From an uncultured Dehalococcoidia bacterium (GTDB lineage: Bacteria > Chloroflexota > Dehalococcoidia > Lucifugimonadales > UBA3495): a stretch of 64,000 bases of DNA. A program made the position numbers and the translations under genes. The stretch spans positions 2,748,981-2,812,980 of the forward strand of contig OY282494.1 of the NCBI GenBank assembly GCA_958296385.1, read 5' to 3'. Shown one piece after another: positions 48,172-55,493 of this stretch (the first letter of the stretch is position 1; each line of letters starts with the position of its first letter). A model generated the notes under the pieces. The model was not told the DNA's origin, did not search any database, and worked only from the letters and a program-made list of their open reading frames with translations.

Positions 48172-50154
48172 ATGAGCATCCCCACCCCCTCAATCCCCAT
48201 CCGCATTACCCCGCAGCGGCTGGCCCTGGCGGCCTTTGTCTGCCTGCTGCTGGTGGCGGCGGGGCTGCGCTTCTATGGCTTGCCGGGGCATTATCTGTGG
48301 AGTGATGAGGCGGTTGCCGCTAATATTGCCGACGGTGCCCTCACCGAGGTAATCCTCGACACGCGCCGCTATAACTCATCGCCCATCCTGTACCCCCTGG
48401 CGTTATGGGTGGTGCAGAAAGTGGACGTCTCCATATTCAGCGTCCGCGTCCTGCCGGCCACGGCCAGCGTTCTGACCGTGGCCGTGATGCTCTTTCTGCT
48501 GCCCCGCCTCGGGGTCAGCCGGTGGGCCGCCTTTCTGGCCGCCCTGCTCACCACGCTTTCCGTTGAAGCAATCCGGACCGCCCAGGATGTGCGCGAATAC
48601 TCCATTGACGCCTTGCTGGCCGTGCTGCTAATAGCCGGTTTGCTGTGGTATCTGCGGGACGGGCGCAAATCCCTGCTCTGCGTTGCGCTGTTCCTCGCCC
48701 CGCTACTCCAGTACGGTTTGGTTCTGTTCGGCGTCGCCGTAATGGGCGCCGCTATAGTTCTACCCTCCCCCTCGACTTTGGGGACGCCGGAACGGGATTC
48801 GCAACGGAGTTGGATTCGTAATTGGTTAAGGCAGCGCGTCGCCCTGGTCTGGCCGGCGGCCTGCTTTATGGCGGGGAGCGCCATCAGCTACGTAGTCACC
48901 GTCCGCTATCAGTGGCAGGAAGGCGGATTCGGCTCGGCTGGCTATTTGCAGTCCCTTTACTATCAGGGAGAAATCGCTGCGTCCGCTATATTTGAGTTTG
49001 CAGTTGACGGCATTTGGAGTTTATTGACGTATCATCTGCCGGAGGAAGTGGCGATAGCCGCGATTCCCGCGTTCGCGATTCTCCTGATTGCAGTAGTCGC
49101 CAGCAAGTTTCAGGGACATTTTCAATCCAGCCCTATCGCGGTTTTATTTTCGCTTTGCATCGTAATTTCCGTCGGCGCTGCTGTGCTGGGAATATATCCC
49201 ATTGGCAGCATTCGCGCAGTCATCTATCTGGGGCCGATTATTTTCCTGGCGGCCGGCGTCGCCGCCCATACGACGGCTGGCAGTCTGGCCGCGCTCACCC
49301 GCCAGCAGTGGCTGACGCCGACGCTCACCATCGCCGCCGCCGCCGCAATACTGCTGGCGGCCCGCGCGGATGCCCTGCATCGGGAATCCTACTGGCCGCT
49401 CTACTCGCCCCGGGACAACGGCGGTGCAATTGTTGCCCTGCTGCAAGAGCGCGCATCAGCCGAGGATGTGATTTATTTCGGCCACCGTATGCGACAGGTT
49501 ATGAATTTCCACCAAAGAAGCCAAATCGGGGAGGTTGTGCTGGATGTAAAGGCAATCTGTCGTCGGCCTCGGCCCGAAACGTGTTTCCCGGAAATGATTG
49601 CCGCCGTCACCCCGCCGGCCGACCTGAGCAAACTCTGGCTGATCTCCGAACATCCCTGGCACACTAGCGGATCTGAGTTGCGCGTGCTGCTGGCGCTGGC
49701 GGAGCACGTCACAATCGAGCATATCGTTTCCGGCGGAAGCCCTAATCTTTATCTGATTCAGGATACGGCAGCCTTGATTAAAATCGCCGCCGCTACCGAT
49801 ATGTTGCGCAACATCAAGCCGGTCTTGCCTGATCAGCCGCCAATTCGCTCCACCTTTGACATCTATCACAGCGCGGATTTGCTGATTTATCACAAGGAGC
49901 CGTGCCGCGCCGAGGACGTTCAGGAACCCTTTTTCCTGCATATCTACCCGGCAGAGACCGGCGATTTACCCCCCCACCGCCGGCAGCACGGCTTCGATCA
50001 CCTCGACTTCGTCTTCCCCGACTACAGCCTTCCACTGCACGAGGGCTGCTTCGCCCTGCGCGCCCTACCCGATTACCCCATCCTCCGCATCAACACCGGC
50101 CAATACAACGCCGCCGGCCCCCTCTGGGCAGTCAATATCAACCTGGACGAATAG
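48172..50154 (+). CDS. GT-C glycosyltransferase-like membrane protein with extra C-terminal domain
   Basis: A 660-aa multi-pass protein of the PMT/ArnT (GT39) type. Helix 1 leads to RFYGLPGHYLWSDEAVAAN with the first-loop acidic pair Asp45-Glu46; EAIRTAQDVREYSIDALL matches the R..q.aReY segment of this superfamily. About ten helices follow, then a soluble part. The last ~115 residues (STFDIYHSADLLIYHKEPCR to LPDYPILRINTGQY) are the same domain as in the paired membrane proteins at 35.9-39.7 kb. It probably transfers a lipid-linked sugar on the outer face of the membrane. No ribosome site is evident. Confidence 0.85.
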   Translation: MSIPTPSIPIRITPQRLALAAFVCLLLVAAGLRFYGLPGHYLWSDEAVAANIADGALTEVILDTRRYNSSPILYPLALWVVQKVDVSIFSVRVLPATASVLTVAVMLFLLPRLGVSRWAAFLAALLTTLSVEAIRTAQDVREYSIDALLAVLLIAGLLWYLRDGRKSLLCVALFLAPLLQYGLVLFGVAVMGAAIVLPSPSTLGTPERDSQRSWIRNWLRQRVALVWPAACFMAGSAISYVVTVRYQWQEGGFGSAGYLQSLYYQGEIAASAIFEFAVDGIWSLLTYHLPEEVAIAAIPAFAILLIAVVASKFQGHFQSSPIAVLFSLCIVISVGAAVLGIYPIGSIRAVIYLGPIIFLAAGVAAHTTAGSLAALTRQQWLTPTLTIAAAAAILLAARADALHRESYWPLYSPRDNGGAIVALLQERASAEDVIYFGHRMRQVMNFHQRSQIGEVVLDVKAICRRPRPETCFPEMIAAVTPPADLSKLWLISEHPWHTSGSELRVLLALAEHVTIEHIVSGGSPNLYLIQDTAALIKIAAATDMLRNIKPVLPDQPPIRSTFDIYHSADLLIYHKEPCRAEDVQEPFFLHIYPAETGDLPPHRRQHGFDHLDFVFPDYSLPLHEGCFALRALPDYPILRINTGQYNAAGPLWAVNINLDE

Positions 50155-50330
50155 TCCGGCCGGCATCGTCGGCACACCTTGTAACGACAATGCGGCAGCC
50201 CCCGTCTGCTACTCTGCCCCAAGTTGACGTAAACCAGCCCGCCCCTTAAACTCCGCAGGGTAATCCGGCACGGCCCCGGGCATATCGGCCCACCGCCCAT
50301 CAACCTACCCCAACGGAGAAAAATACGGCT

Positions 50331-52049
50331 ATGAAGTTGCAGATTATGTCTCCCGCCGCCGCCCGCGTGGATTTCAAGGTGCCCCCGGCGCCCCGTCTGG
50401 AATCCCTTGCTGGCAAGACCATCGGCCTGTACAACAACATGACCGGCGGTGCTGATGTTGCCGTGAACCGCGTTGCCGAGCATCTGGAACGCCGTTTCTC
50501 CGACGTCAAGTTTGAGCGCTACGGCGGCAGCCTCCGCGATGGCCGCCCGGCCCTGAGCCGTGGCACGCACATTGACGACGACGAAGCCGCCCGCATCGCC
50601 AACGAAGTTGACGCCATGGTCGGCGCCGCCGCCCATTGAGGCGGCTGCACGTCGTGGCTTGCCCACGACATGGTTGCTATGGAGAAGGCCGGCATCCCCG
50701 CCGTGGGCATCGCCGCCCGCAGTTTTGCCCGTGCCTGGCAGTCCTGCGTCGACGGCTGGGGGCAGCCCGCCGCCGCTTTCGTCACCATCCCCCACGCCTG
50801 CACCGGCCAGCAGCCCGACTACATCTGCAAAATGGTCGATGAGCAGATTGACGACATCATCCTCGGCCTGACCCGTCTGGCCGCCTCCCCCGACCGCTCC
50901 GGCATGAGCAGCGCCGCATCCGAGCTTTTCACCGTCACCCTGGACGACTCCCCCTGGGGTCTGGACGGCGTGAACCGTTTCATGGAGGAACGCGACTGGA
51001 GCGACGGCCTCCCCGTAATCCCGCCCACGCCGGCGGCGGTCGAGGCCATGCTCAAAGGCACCCGCCGCGACCCGCAGGACGTCGTTATGGTAATGGAACC
51101 CGGCTTTGGCCTGGCCACCGTCGAGAAAATCGCCGTCAACGCCGTCATGGCCGGCTGCGCCCCGGAGCAGCTCCCCGTACTGCTCGCCGCCATCGAGTGC
51201 ATCGCCCAGCCGGAGATGAACCACCGCGATATGCAGGTCTCCGGCCACACCGAAGCCCCTCTGATACTGGTCAACGGCCCCGTCGCGCAAAAAGCCGGCA
51301 TCAACTCTGGCACCTCCGCAATGGGGCCAGGCGTCGTCAACAAGCCCAACACCGCCATTGGCCGCGCCCTCCGCCTCTGCCTCATCAACATCGGCTACTG
51401 CAAGGCCGGCGCCGGCGACCCCAACTTTATCGGCCTCCCCACCAAGTTCGGTATGTGCATCGCCGAGAACGAAGCCGTATCCCCCTGGCCGGCCTACCAC
51501 GTTGACCAGGGCTACCGCCCCGACGACAGCGCCGTTACCGTCGTAACCGTCACCGGCCCCACCGACATCCTCGACGCCGCCTCCCGCAGCCACCACGACA
51601 CCCTGGCGAACATTGCCGCCATGATGTTCTACCGTCACGCCGGCGGCGGCAGCTGGATACGCGGACGCCAGACCGCCCAGGTCGGCCACACCAACCAGCA
51701 CGTGCCCTACCAGGGCCCCTACCACCCCATCATGCTCAGCCCCTCCCGCGCCGTCATCCTCGCCGAGGCCGGTTACAGCAAGCAGGACACCCAGCAGTGG
51801 CTCCACGAGAATTGCCGCGCCAGCCTGCAAGACGCCATCGGCAACCGCCCCATCCCCACCGACGCCAGCGGCAACTGGCAGGCCCACCCCGAATTGCAGC
51901 ATCTCGCCAACGACCCCGACGCTACCATCCCGGCCCTGGAAAGCCCCGAACAATACCTGCTGTTCGTCACCGGCGGCTCCACCCACTACGCCAACTTCTT
52001 CTACGGCACCTACGGCATCGCCACCCGCCCCGTAGAGGATGTGACGTAG
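50331..52049 (+). CDS. UGSC-type selenoprotein, read through an in-frame TGA (Sec103)
   Basis: Two open stretches (50331-50639 and 50640-52049) share one frame and are split only by TGA at 50637-50639. The junction reads AAAH-TGA-GGCTSW; in the UGSC family this position is selenocysteine or cysteine in a U/C-G-x-C motif followed by TSW. Translated with Sec the protein has 572 aa: an N-terminal alpha/beta domain (SLAGKTIGLYNNMTGGADV), the U-G-G-C loop at 103-106, GIPAVGIAARSF, and a C-terminal domain opening with DGLPVIPPTPAAVEAML. The start has GGAG ~15 nt upstream. A hairpin follows the TGA. A plain nonsense mutation is the alternative. The function is unknown, probably redox. Confidence 0.82.
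50648..50672 (+). promoter_or_regulatory. Candidate bacterial SECIS hairpin
   Basis: A perfect 7-bp stem (GTCGTGG 50651-50657 with CCACGAC 50663-50669, loop CTTGC) starts 12 nt after the in-frame TGA, with two more pairs beyond a mismatch. Position and size fit a bacterial selenocysteine insertion element, which lies just downstream of the UGA within the coding region. The apical features of E. coli fdhF are not strictly conserved here. Confidence 0.55.
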
Positions 52050-52093
52050 AGGTAGCGTTTCGCTTTTAGGTGGTTTAATCAGCCCTCCCACCT

Positions 52094-52199
52094 AATGTCA
52101 TTCTGAGCGCAGCGAAGAATCTCGAAAGCGTAGCAACGGCGTTGCCCCCAAAGTGTGCCCTACGTCATCGAGATTCTTCGCTACGCTCAGAATGACATT
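52094..52199. repeat. 106-bp interspersed inverted repeat, copy after the selenoprotein
   Basis: Both arms present (52094-52125 and 52168-52199); the right arm has one change (GCTACGCTC for GCTGCGCTC). It starts 45 bp after the stop of the UGSC-type gene and forms a strong hairpin at its 3' end. The rest of the 213-bp gap holds only the ribosome site of the next gene. Confidence 0.9.
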
Positions 52200-52262
52200 A
52201 GGGAAATTAAACCAACCGAAACGGAACGCTACCGGCCGTAAAGGACATCTAGGAGAACACTT

Positions 52263-53189
52263 ATGCCCCGGATACCCGCAGACCAGTACGTATCCCAAGT
52301 CCGCAAACCCGACGACATCGACCAGTTCTGGGAGGACGTACTGGCCGCCACCGCCCGCATCCCCCTGGCGCCGGAGTCCCGCTACGACCCCCTGCGCTCA
52401 TCCGCTGACGTTGAGGTTCACGAGATATTCTTCACCAGCCTTGACGATGTACGCATCGCCGGCTGGTACGCTTTGCCCCGCGAGCGCAGCGGCCCCTTGC
52501 CCGGCCTGCTGCAAGTCCCCGGCTACAACATGGAGCCGCCCGTACCCAAGCCCTGGGCGCGCAAAGGCTACGCCGCCCTCAGCGTTGCCCCCCGCGGCAA
52601 GCTCCGCAGCAACCGCCAGTTCAACCCCGGCTACCCCGGCCTCCTCACCTACGGCATCGTTGACCGCAACACCTACTCCTACCGGGGCTTTTACATGGAC
52701 GCCTGCCGGGGCGTTGACTTTCTGATTGGCCGCGATGAAGTTGACGCCCACCGCATCGGCGTAACCGGCCACAGTCAGGGCGGCGGCCTCACCGTATCCA
52801 CCGCGGCCCTGCGCCCCGAAATCAAAGCCGCCGCCGCCGGCGCCCCCTACCTCTGCGGCTACATCGACGCCATCGAACTAACCGACGCCTACCCCTATCA
52901 GGAAATCAACGACTACCTCCGCCAAAACCCCCACCGTCGCCAGCAAGTCACCGACACCCTGGCCTACTTTGACGGCATCAACCTGGCCCATCGCATCAAC
53001 TGCCCCATCATCGTCAGCGTAGGCTTGCAGGACAGCACCTGCCCCCCCGAAACCGGCTACGCCATGTTCAACGCCATTGCCACCCCCCACAAGCAAATCT
53101 ACGGCTACGACGGCCACGGCCACGACGCCAACAACCACCACCACGCCGCCATCATCGACCAATTCATGGCCCAACACCTCCAACCCTAA
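52263..53189 (+). CDS. Acetyl xylan esterase-like alpha/beta hydrolase
   Basis: A 308-aa esterase of the acetyl xylan esterase/cephalosporin deacetylase (AXE1) type. The N-terminus has FWEDVLAATAR; the body has GLLQVPGYNMEPP (oxyanion region), the nucleophile motif GVTGHSQGGGLT with Ser near 169, the acid in VGLQDSTCPP and the His in DGHGHDANNHH near the end. All catalytic residues are present. It would deacetylate a sugar or similar ester. A degenerate paralogue lies two elements downstream. AGGAGAAC precedes the ATG. Confidence 0.88.
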   Translation: MPRIPADQYVSQVRKPDDIDQFWEDVLAATARIPLAPESRYDPLRSSADVEVHEIFFTSLDDVRIAGWYALPRERSGPLPGLLQVPGYNMEPPVPKPWARKGYAALSVAPRGKLRSNRQFNPGYPGLLTYGIVDRNTYSYRGFYMDACRGVDFLIGRDEVDAHRIGVTGHSQGGGLTVSTAALRPEIKAAAAGAPYLCGYIDAIELTDAYPYQEINDYLRQNPHRRQQVTDTLAYFDGINLAHRINCPIIVSVGLQDSTCPPETGYAMFNAIATPHKQIYGYDGHGHDANNHHHAAIIDQFMAQHLQP

Positions 53190-53386: not shown

Positions 53387-54337
53387 ATGACCACCCCATC
53401 CAGCGCCATGCCCTCCGATTTCAACGCCTACTGGCAGCAAACCCTGCAAGAGCTGGCCCGACTGCCGGCCGCCCCCGAAGTAGCCGAGCTCCCCCTGCGT
53501 TCCACCGACTTTGCCACCGCCTACGGCGTCCGCCTCACGTCCATCGGCCCCTACCGCATCTTCGGCTATCTGAGCATCCCCAAAGATGCTGACGCTGACG
53601 CCGACACTGACGCCGCCGGCGCCGGCCCGTTCCCCGCCCGCTACTATCTGCCCCGCTACGGCAGCGTTGCCGACCTCGTTCCCCAGGGACAGGCCAACGG
53701 GCAGCGCCGCCAGCACGTCACCTTTGCCGTCTGCGTCCGCGGCCAGCGCCTCGCCGACCAGCCCTACGCCGCCGCCTTCCCCGGCCTCCTCACCGACGGC
53801 ATTGACGACCCCCAATCCTACATCTACCGGGGCATCCTCGCCGACTGCCGTCGCGGACTGGAATACCTGCTCACCCGCCCCGAAGTTGACCCCACCCGCA
53901 TCGCCGCCATCGGCCCCGACCTGGCCCTGGCCACGGCGGCCCTCTCCCCCGAAATCACCCACGCCGTATGCACCCCCGCCATATTCTGCAACACCCCCGA
54001 ACTGGCCGCCCGCACCACCGCCTACCCCCTCGAGGAAATCAACGACTACCTCCGCCAGCACCCGGAGCGGCAAGATGCGGCCCACCGCACCCTGTCCTAC
54101 TTTGACCTCCGCTGGTTCGCCCCGCAGGTCGCCGCCAGCACCCTGCTAATCGCCGGCGCCGACGGCGCCCCCCTTGACGCCGCCGCCCTGGAACCCCTGG
54201 CCCAGTCCATCCCCGGCGGCTGCGAACTGCACAAATCCGAACACTCCGGTTTCAAAGACGGCGTGCACAGCGAGCAATGGCTAACCCGCCAATTCGGACT
54301 CCCCGAACCCAGCCTCCCACCCCACTGGCAGCAGTAA
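53387..54337 (+). CDS. Degenerate acetyl xylan esterase-like protein
   Basis: 316 aa, same fold and order as the preceding esterase (FNAYWQQTLQELAR, YRGILADCRRGLEYLLTRPE, AYPLEEINDYLRQHPERQ). The nucleophile motif is lost: the position of GHSQGG reads AIGPDLALA, so there is no catalytic Ser. The acid region reads GADGAPLD and a His remains in SEHSGFKDG. An Ala/Asp-rich insert (DADADADTDAAGAG) lies near residue 70. It is probably non-catalytic: a binding or regulatory relative, or a decaying duplicate. Confidence 0.8.
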   Translation: MTTPSSAMPSDFNAYWQQTLQELARLPAAPEVAELPLRSTDFATAYGVRLTSIGPYRIFGYLSIPKDADADADTDAAGAGPFPARYYLPRYGSVADLVPQGQANGQRRQHVTFAVCVRGQRLADQPYAAAFPGLLTDGIDDPQSYIYRGILADCRRGLEYLLTRPEVDPTRIAAIGPDLALATAALSPEITHAVCTPAIFCNTPELAARTTAYPLEEINDYLRQHPERQDAAHRTLSYFDLRWFAPQVAASTLLIAGADGAPLDAAALEPLAQSIPGGCELHKSEHSGFKDGVHSEQWLTRQFGLPEPSLPPHWQQ

Positions 54338-54383
54338 CGCCGGCCGGCATTATCCCGGTTTCGTGAATGAACGGAGGGACAGC

Positions 54384-55493
54384 ATGAAAGCATCTTACCT
54401 GGGCGCGATGGGCTACTCCCAGCGGCACACTTTCCCCACCACCTGGCCTATTCCCCCGTCCTGCCACGAACCCGCTACGTCGGTGCGCAGCTACCAGGAG
54501 GGTATGGACGAGTGCCAGTTTGCCGAGGAAATGGGCTTTGACTGGATTAGTTTCTCCGAGCATCATTACTCCGGACGCATCGCCACCGGCGCCCCGGCAG
54601 TGATGGCCGCCGCCGTTGCCGAACGCTGCCGCCGCGTCAAAATCGCCATGCTCGGCCAGCTGCTCCCCCTCAACAACCCCGTCCGCTGCGCCGAGGAACT
54701 CGGCCTGCTGGACAACCTCACCAACGGCCGCCTCATCATCGGCTTCCTCCGCGGCACCCCCAACGAAGACCAAACCTACGGCGTCAACCCCGCCGAGGGA
54801 CGCGGCCGCCTCTTTGAGGGCATGGACTTAATCCGGAAAGCCCTCACCGAACCAGAGCCGTTCTCGTGGGAAGGCCGCTATCACCAGTACCGCACCGTCG
54901 CCGTCTGGCCGCCCCCCGTCCAGCAGCCCCTCCCCCCCGTAATCGTCGCCACCCGCAGCGACGACACCGTCCGCTACGCCGCCGAGAACCGCCTCGGCCT
55001 CGGCGTATCATTCGTCCCGCCGGAGCGCATGGCCGAGATTACCGCCAAGTACTTCCAATGGTGTGCCGAAGCCGGCTGGCAGCCCGAACCCGACCAAATC
55101 GTATTCCGCGGCAGCATCTACCTAACCGAAACCGACCAACAAGCCCAGGACTGGCTAGCCCAACGCACCACCGGCAACACCGCCGTCCCCGGCGGCATCG
55201 CCATGCCCCCCAGCGTAGCCCGCGCCGTAGATGCCGCCCGCCAAATCGACGGCTCCAGCCTCCGCGCCGGCGTAGCCGGCAGCCCGCAAGGCGACGTAGT
55301 AGGCGTATCCGGCCGCCTCAACTTCATGGGCAGCCCCGACACCGTAGTAAAGCAAATCAAACAATTCCACGACCAATGCGGCGCCGGCGTAATCGACCTA
55401 TTCTTCCAACAACCCGGCGTACCCCACCAGGAAGTAATGCAAGAAATAAACCTATTCGCCCAAGAAGTCCTCCCCCGCATCCGCGAGTTCTAG
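54384..55493 (+). CDS. LLM-class flavin-dependent monooxygenase
   Basis: A 369-aa TIM-barrel enzyme of the bacterial luciferase family, using reduced flavin (FMNH2 or F420). Visible: YQEGMDECQFAEEMGFDWIS, FSEHHYS (family: .SEHH), VKIAMLGQLLPLNNPVRCAEE, LDNLTNGRLIIGFLRGTPNED and, near the C-terminus, NFMGSPDTVVKQIKQF with a terminal DLFFQQPG. The start at 54384 follows GGAGGGA by 5 nt; an upstream GTG at 54363 lacks a ribosome site. The substrate is unknown. SAR202-type Chloroflexota carry many such enzymes for recalcitrant organic matter. Confidence 0.9.
   Translation: MKASYLGAMGYSQRHTFPTTWPIPPSCHEPATSVRSYQEGMDECQFAEEMGFDWISFSEHHYSGRIATGAPAVMAAAVAERCRRVKIAMLGQLLPLNNPVRCAEELGLLDNLTNGRLIIGFLRGTPNEDQTYGVNPAEGRGRLFEGMDLIRKALTEPEPFSWEGRYHQYRTVAVWPPPVQQPLPPVIVATRSDDTVRYAAENRLGLGVSFVPPERMAEITAKYFQWCAEAGWQPEPDQIVFRGSIYLTETDQQAQDWLAQRTTGNTAVPGGIAMPPSVARAVDAARQIDGSSLRAGVAGSPQGDVVGVSGRLNFMGSPDTVVKQIKQFHDQCGAGVIDLFFQQPGVPHQEVMQEINLFAQEVLPRIREF

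Follow-up and report, generated by a model that had tools for sequence, protein, structure and literature searches.

Does a gene that automatic annotation splits in two at a TGA codon encode two truncated products, or one polypeptide in which the codon is read as selenocysteine? This question is raised by positions 50331–52049 of a 64,000-nucleotide stretch of DNA that we analysed as a whole (the window; its features lie on the plus strand unless stated otherwise). The stretch belongs to a complete genome (3.3 Mb, 99.95% complete) of a SAR202-type Dehalococcoidia bacterium. The SAR202 lineage is prominent in ocean carbon turnover, and the papers in the literature that we searched make no mention of SAR202 selenoproteins.

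Decoding of the in-frame TGA

The reading frame starts with ATG, ends with TAG and comprises 572 codons. As proposed in the initial annotation, which took the locus for a selenoprotein gene of the UGSC family, the frame is broken by a single TGA at codon 103 (50637–50639) and is otherwise open, and its read-through translation contains AAAH-U-GGC-TSW, then GIPAV, around the putative selenocysteine (Sec103). Cys106 (50646–50648), the presumed resolving cysteine, completes the U-G-x-C motif, and a GGAG placed 12 nt before the ATG (50315–50318) may serve as ribosome-binding site. A standard gene caller indeed returns two ORFs, one of 102 amino acids (50331–50639) and one of 459 amino acids (50670–52049). 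The window DNA has a GC content of 62.5%, and the whole gene is also spanned by a 672-amino-acid open frame on the minus strand (50073–52091), which we judge to be spurious, a product of codon and GC bias. Open frames are therefore cheap in this DNA and constitute weak evidence on their own. Rather, it is conservation that excludes chance, and neither the open frame nor the folding energy of the hairpin described below does so.

All 38 distinct orthologues, which are 65–87% identical to the window gene, carry TGA at codon 103 and are free of other stops (39/39 with the window gene included); a sense codon at this position does not occur among these close homologues. The orthologues come from genomes of the same family, whose records bear the titles SAR202 cluster or Dehalococcoidia, and from one record titled Proteobacteria bacterium MAG (L139, SXND01000188.1; 75% identity), which is likely mislabelled or a mixed bin. 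Relative to the window gene, pN/pS ranges from 0.10 to 0.32 upstream of the TGA and is similarly low downstream (mostly 0.1–0.3). Purifying selection thus acts on both sides of the TGA, in line with the earlier impression that the sequence beyond it is conserved. Across 29 UGSC proteins, Sec103, Gly104, Cys106, Gly121 and Pro123 are invariant. Upon examination of synonymous sites, we found the lowest variability of the entire gene in codons 102–115 (ratio 0.34 versus a median of 0.85), a segment that coincides with the hairpin. Within it, Leu110 is encoded by CTT in 39/39 sequences, even though CTT makes up only 6% of the leucine codons in these genes.

The genome contains each of the components whose presence the initial annotation had asked to be checked: selA (530567–531916 in genome coordinates, as for the following; 537 bits), selB (2124890–2126746; 357 bits), selD (1766127–1767047; L054, G000:C1; 374 bits) and a tRNA-Sec with the anticodon TCA (449534–449626; 66 bits). 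The selD gene is itself broken by one TGA, which lies at the Sec/Cys site of selD.

The 7-bp hairpin that had been noted 12 nt after the TGA starts exactly at +12 and extends to +30 (numbered from the base after the TGA), with GUCGUGG (50651–50657) paired to CCACGAC (50663–50669) around the loop CUUGC (50658–50662). Its folding energy is ordinary (MFE −11.9 kcal/mol, z 0.14), and we rejected it as evidence. Bacterial SECIS (bSECIS) elements are modelled with a stem of 4–16 bp, a loop of 3–9 nt, a position 16–37 nt from the UGA and an MFE of at most −7.5 (PMC13188914). With its 7-bp stem, a 5-nt loop that begins 18 nt after the UGA and the energy given above, the window hairpin falls inside these limits. 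The bSECIS consensus further places a G in the first two loop positions (PMC13188914); CUUGC has none there unless the closing G-C pair opens. Among 140 UGSC genes, loop position 2 (+20) is G in 79 and +21 is U in 128. Because many members carry a G at +20 and the window's class carries CUUGC, we regard this class as a variant loop type.

Covariation was assessed in these 140 distinct genes, defined as UGSC genes that lack a proline at the fifth codon after the TGA. In the register of the hairpin (i + j = 42), 84% of cells are paired, compared to 24–50% when the register is slid and a maximum of 76% over 500 shuffles. Since kinship among the sequences inflates pairing counts, the comparison with slid registers is the fairer one. 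Pairing reaches 94–96% in the five upper pairs, and the seven pairs together display 84 double-change cells across the 140 sequences. In UGSC genes that do have a proline at the fifth codon, the register is shifted by one (to 41) and is 85% paired. An Rfam search across the hairpin returned chance matches only.

Two readings of the locus would do without selenocysteine. If the TGA were a real stop, the locus might be a pseudogene or result from a sequencing error, or it might encode two proteins, the second made by reinitiation at 50670, and both the two ORFs of the standard caller and the ATG 31 nt after the TGA agree with such a reading. It is nevertheless very improbable: the TGA is common to every distinct sequence with no other stop beside it, selection is purifying upstream and downstream, the hairpin is under synonymous constraint and covaries, and conservation extends to the ten residues from the TGA to the ATG, Cys106 among them, which would go untranslated under reinitiation. 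A changed genetic code, in which TGA specifies an ordinary amino acid, would likewise keep the frame open on both sides of the codon, yet we give it next to no credence. TGA serves as a normal stop for 3 of the 19 window genes examined, only one extra TGA lies outside the U site across 69 UGSC domains of a related genome (G097, described below), and the window's genome has the full sel set; TGA codons are restricted to Sec sites and the ends of genes. Based on genome content and conservation, the interrupted gene almost certainly encodes one intact, Sec-containing polypeptide in which a single UGA is read as selenocysteine. Genome content, conservation and covariation together indicate that SelB and tRNA-Sec decode the UGA at codon 103, aided by the stem-loop from +12 to +30.

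A UGSC domain fused to a partner domain

Residues 1–181 (50331–50873) form a UGSC domain. The family assignment made earlier stands in the broad sense, with 98 bits against Pfam PF24696 (cut-off 25), and does not extend to the NCBIfam UGSC equivalog NF041046, for which the protein scores 85.4 bits against a cut-off of 125. The window's genome encodes six UGSC genes, all of which have a TGA at the site, and the family is present in 47 of the 60 genomes searched (the window's own counted). UGSC was described as an abundant marine selenoprotein family, with 255 Sec and 21 Cys members, in a 2008 survey (Zhang and Gladyshev, 2008, PMC2398784). The window protein shares with these UGSC-containing selenoproteins (PF24696; NF041046; the GOS selenoproteome, PMC2398784) the domain, the U-G-x-C site with Sec in place, a SECIS-type hairpin downstream and an uncharacterised function. 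By contrast, it has diverged to U-G-G-C in place of U-G-S-C, it stays below the equivalog cut-off and it carries a fused C-terminal domain.

This second domain, of the DGLPVIPPT type, occupies residues 195–572 (50913–52046). Both halves of the protein also occur as separate adjoining genes, elsewhere in the window's genome and in relatives, which shows that the C-terminal domain is the product of an otherwise neighbouring gene, here fused. Throughout the class there are fusions at 34–40% identity, nearly all of which contain a single TGA. The idea that the fusion might be a new architecture is not upheld: the arrangement occurs widely in the class, and as early as 2008 a UGSC/Unknown_1 fusion selenoprotein had been described (PMC2398784). 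The reported protein likewise joins a UGSC domain to a conserved, functionally uncharacterised domain with a Cys, and Unknown_1 (Figure S1A of PMC2398784) is probably the DGLP domain. Since both UGSC proteins and this fusion were reported at that time, proteins of this kind were already known.

The partner domain has no sequence relative in Pfam, NCBIfam or the PDB. A fold search with it gave no clear match; fumarate hydratase ranked best, with a Z of 5.7 over 98 residues, and the matches also included cyclic amide hydrolases. Its kept motifs (DGLP, MAGC, NGP, GPG-RAN-IGRA-RL and C-AE) suggest a putative binding site with a conserved arginine and a conserved cysteine.

Kinship of the selenocysteine site with selenoprotein B

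The AlphaFold2 model of the protein is confident (pLDDT 90, pTM 0.91). It predicts a flavodoxin/Rossmann-like α/β fold for the UGSC domain rather than a thioredoxin-like one, and it places Sec103 between a strand (residues 95–101) and a helix (residues 104–119). Fold searches with the UGSC domain matched only the common flavodoxin/Rossmann arrangement. When the PDB was searched by sequence, neither the fusion nor the profiles of UGSC and of the partner found a relative; matches to 8p4y and GCN4 were rejected as a designed protein or coiled-coil chance.

Profile alignment of UGSC with Chloroflexota selenoprotein B (GrdB-type) by hhalign gave a P of 1e-8 and a probability of 95.7 over 96 columns. 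In this alignment, the two Sec residues coincide, and the G-x-C, E-x-x-G-I-P and H-P-x-G positions are in register. Control profile comparisons (UGSC or partner against GrdE or GrdB) reached 0.1–0.7%; at this level, we rejected both GrdE and GrdB as relatives of the partner domain. Searches with individual proteins point in the same direction. Of 45 UGSC members, 26 match GrdB (TIGR01917; best E 8e-7), 20 GrdF, 19 TIGR01918, 14 GrdH and 9 PrdB. Apart from UGSC itself and these selenoprotein B families of the reductases, no family is matched by many members. The window gene itself has no match to the GrdB models (TIGR01918 cut-off 65 bits), and its link to GrdB runs via the family; its genome has no TIGR01918 match at E <= 1e-20.

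These alignments make it highly probable that the UGSC Sec site shares ancestry with the Sec domain of GrdB-type selenoprotein B, and we can describe the window protein, with good confidence, as a selenoprotein whose Sec site has this ancestry. The literature that we searched contains no statement of a UGSC-GrdB kinship. The likeness to selenoprotein B of the glycine, betaine, sarcosine and D-proline reductases (GrdB, GrdF, GrdH, PrdB; PF07355) comprises the homologous Sec-G-x-C-(T/S) site over about 96 aligned columns and, in Chloroflexota, the location of both UGSC and GrdB-type genes beside SBP_bac_5 lipoproteins. Unlike selenoprotein B, the UGSC fusion has neither the remaining GrdB regions nor a GrdE partner, and its own partner is unrelated to GrdE. 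Separately, one Chloroflexota genome (G603) contains six glycine-reductase-type selenoprotein B genes (L199–L212), several of which have U-G-T-G, U-G-S-G or U-G-T-A in place of U-G-x-C.

The kinship bears on what kind of enzyme this may be. A thioredoxin-like fold was suggested for UGSC in 2008 (PMC2398784), and on this view the protein would be an ordinary thiol-disulfide oxidoreductase or peroxidase, with the C-terminal domain as a redox accessory. Its U-x-x-C motif is what one would expect of such an enzyme. The confident model is flavodoxin/Rossmann-like, however, thioredoxin families are absent from the matches of UGSC members, and the Sec site aligns with that of GrdB, all of which renders this view unlikely. 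Less likely still is a Sec-using racemase, epimerase or isomerase with an Asp/Glu-racemase-like fold that acts on amino or hydroxy acids. It was brought up by a hydantoin racemase among the weak fold matches (2eq5, E 0.017) and by a weak Asparaginase_C match in one relative. Fold matches of this sort are common for flavodoxin/Rossmann-type folds and have no sequence match beside them, and the only specific sequence relatives are the selenoprotein B reductases.

Because the active site is homologous to that of GrdB by profile comparison, we interpret the protein as a GrdB-like Sec reductase that is joined to its own partner subunit, and we propose the following course of events. Sec103 and Cys106 of the U-G-x-C motif would lie where a strand of the UGSC domain ends and a helix begins, and a small substrate could be held between the UGSC and partner domains. 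Sec103 might then attack the substrate to form a selenoether or similar bond, Cys106 would resolve the adduct, giving a selenenyl-sulfide, after which the Sec site would be reset by a thiol reductant of the cell. The protein would thus act as a soluble reductase component B with an own, unrelated partner subunit. That the fusion catalyses a GrdB-like reductive reaction is a tentative proposal by analogy, to which we assign slightly less than even chances.

The homology offers a mechanistic hypothesis for a long-uncharacterised family, and the fusion points to a partner subunit for co-expression. Taken together, they open the function of a major marine selenoprotein family to direct tests. The window gene is also a clear example of a selenoprotein split in two by automatic annotation.

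Copy number and gene neighbourhoods

A related genome of the same class (G097; L220–L239, L244–L323; 5.0 Mb in 110 contigs, 96% complete, 7% contamination) reveals the extent to which the family can multiply. Among 208 candidates, at least 150 match PF24696 and at least 146 have an in-frame TGA. In 1.68 Mb examined, made up of stretches partly picked for known UGSC matches, we counted 115 UGSC domains with a TGA at the U-G-x-C site. The published bacterial record is 63 selenoprotein genes, in one Methylomirabilota MAG (PMC13188914); the TGA-bearing UGSC matches of G097 amount to more than twice this number, a copy number that may reflect strain co-assembly. No selA, selB, selD or tRNA-Sec lies within the 1.68 Mb examined, and none of the 150 candidates scored, out of 734 in G097, exceeds the tRNA-Sec cut-off, the best match being a tRNA-Ser. 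In another genome of the class, G098, there are 46 UGSC matches together with a tRNA-Sec whose anticodon is TCA (loci L171, L175, L180, L185, L190, L195 and L240).

An SBP_bac_5-like gene lies within 3 kb on the same strand for 92 of the 115 G097 UGSC genes, compared to 42.8 ± 4.6 for random places. In other Chloroflexota, GrdB-type genes are found beside GrdE and an SBP_bac_5 lipoprotein. Because no solute-binding protein gene was seen adjoining the window gene, we use this association at the level of the family only. It is conceivable, at somewhat under even odds, that UGSC and its DGLP partner constitute an undescribed class of two-component selenoenzymes parallel to glycine reductase, in which the GrdB-type Sec domain was kept and the partner replaced, and which diversified with extracellular solute-binding lipoproteins to more than 100 selenoprotein genes of one family within single Chloroflexota genomes. 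We consider the combination of a GrdB-type active site with an unrelated partner, together with the copy number of the family, most worth attention.

Several loci of G097 deserve mention in their own right. UGSC genes alternate with family-5 solute-binding lipoproteins at L220, L224 and L233, and a glycyl-radical enzyme lies among those genes (L233:4566-6992). UGSC paralogues at L236, L237 and L301 have S-G-V at the site and no TGA, the Sec-Cys pair apparently having been lost. On the minus strand of L237, one UGSC gene contains two TGA codons (U-G-T-U-T-S-W), and U-G-T-U suggests a diselenide pair.

Downstream of the window gene lie two AXE1-family hydrolase genes, the first encoding an α/β hydrolase (52263–53189) and the second at 53387–54337, followed by a luciferase-like monooxygenase gene (54381–55493), a close copy of which is kept in one relative (L112). 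The AXE1 genes are kept at 7 of the 19 loci with long flanks and are absent from the others, and we therefore rejected the notion that they form a fixed operon with the selenoprotein gene. The neighbouring hydrolases and the flavin monooxygenase fit a role in the catabolism of organic compounds, and expansions of catabolic enzyme paralogues have been described in SAR202 (PMC6946804, PMC10444878). In the interval that separates the selenoprotein gene from the one after it, positions 52094–52204 contain an imperfect inverted repeat (cattctgagcgcagcgaagaatctcg ... cgagattcttcgctacgctcagaatgac) that resembles a mobile or terminator-type repeat.
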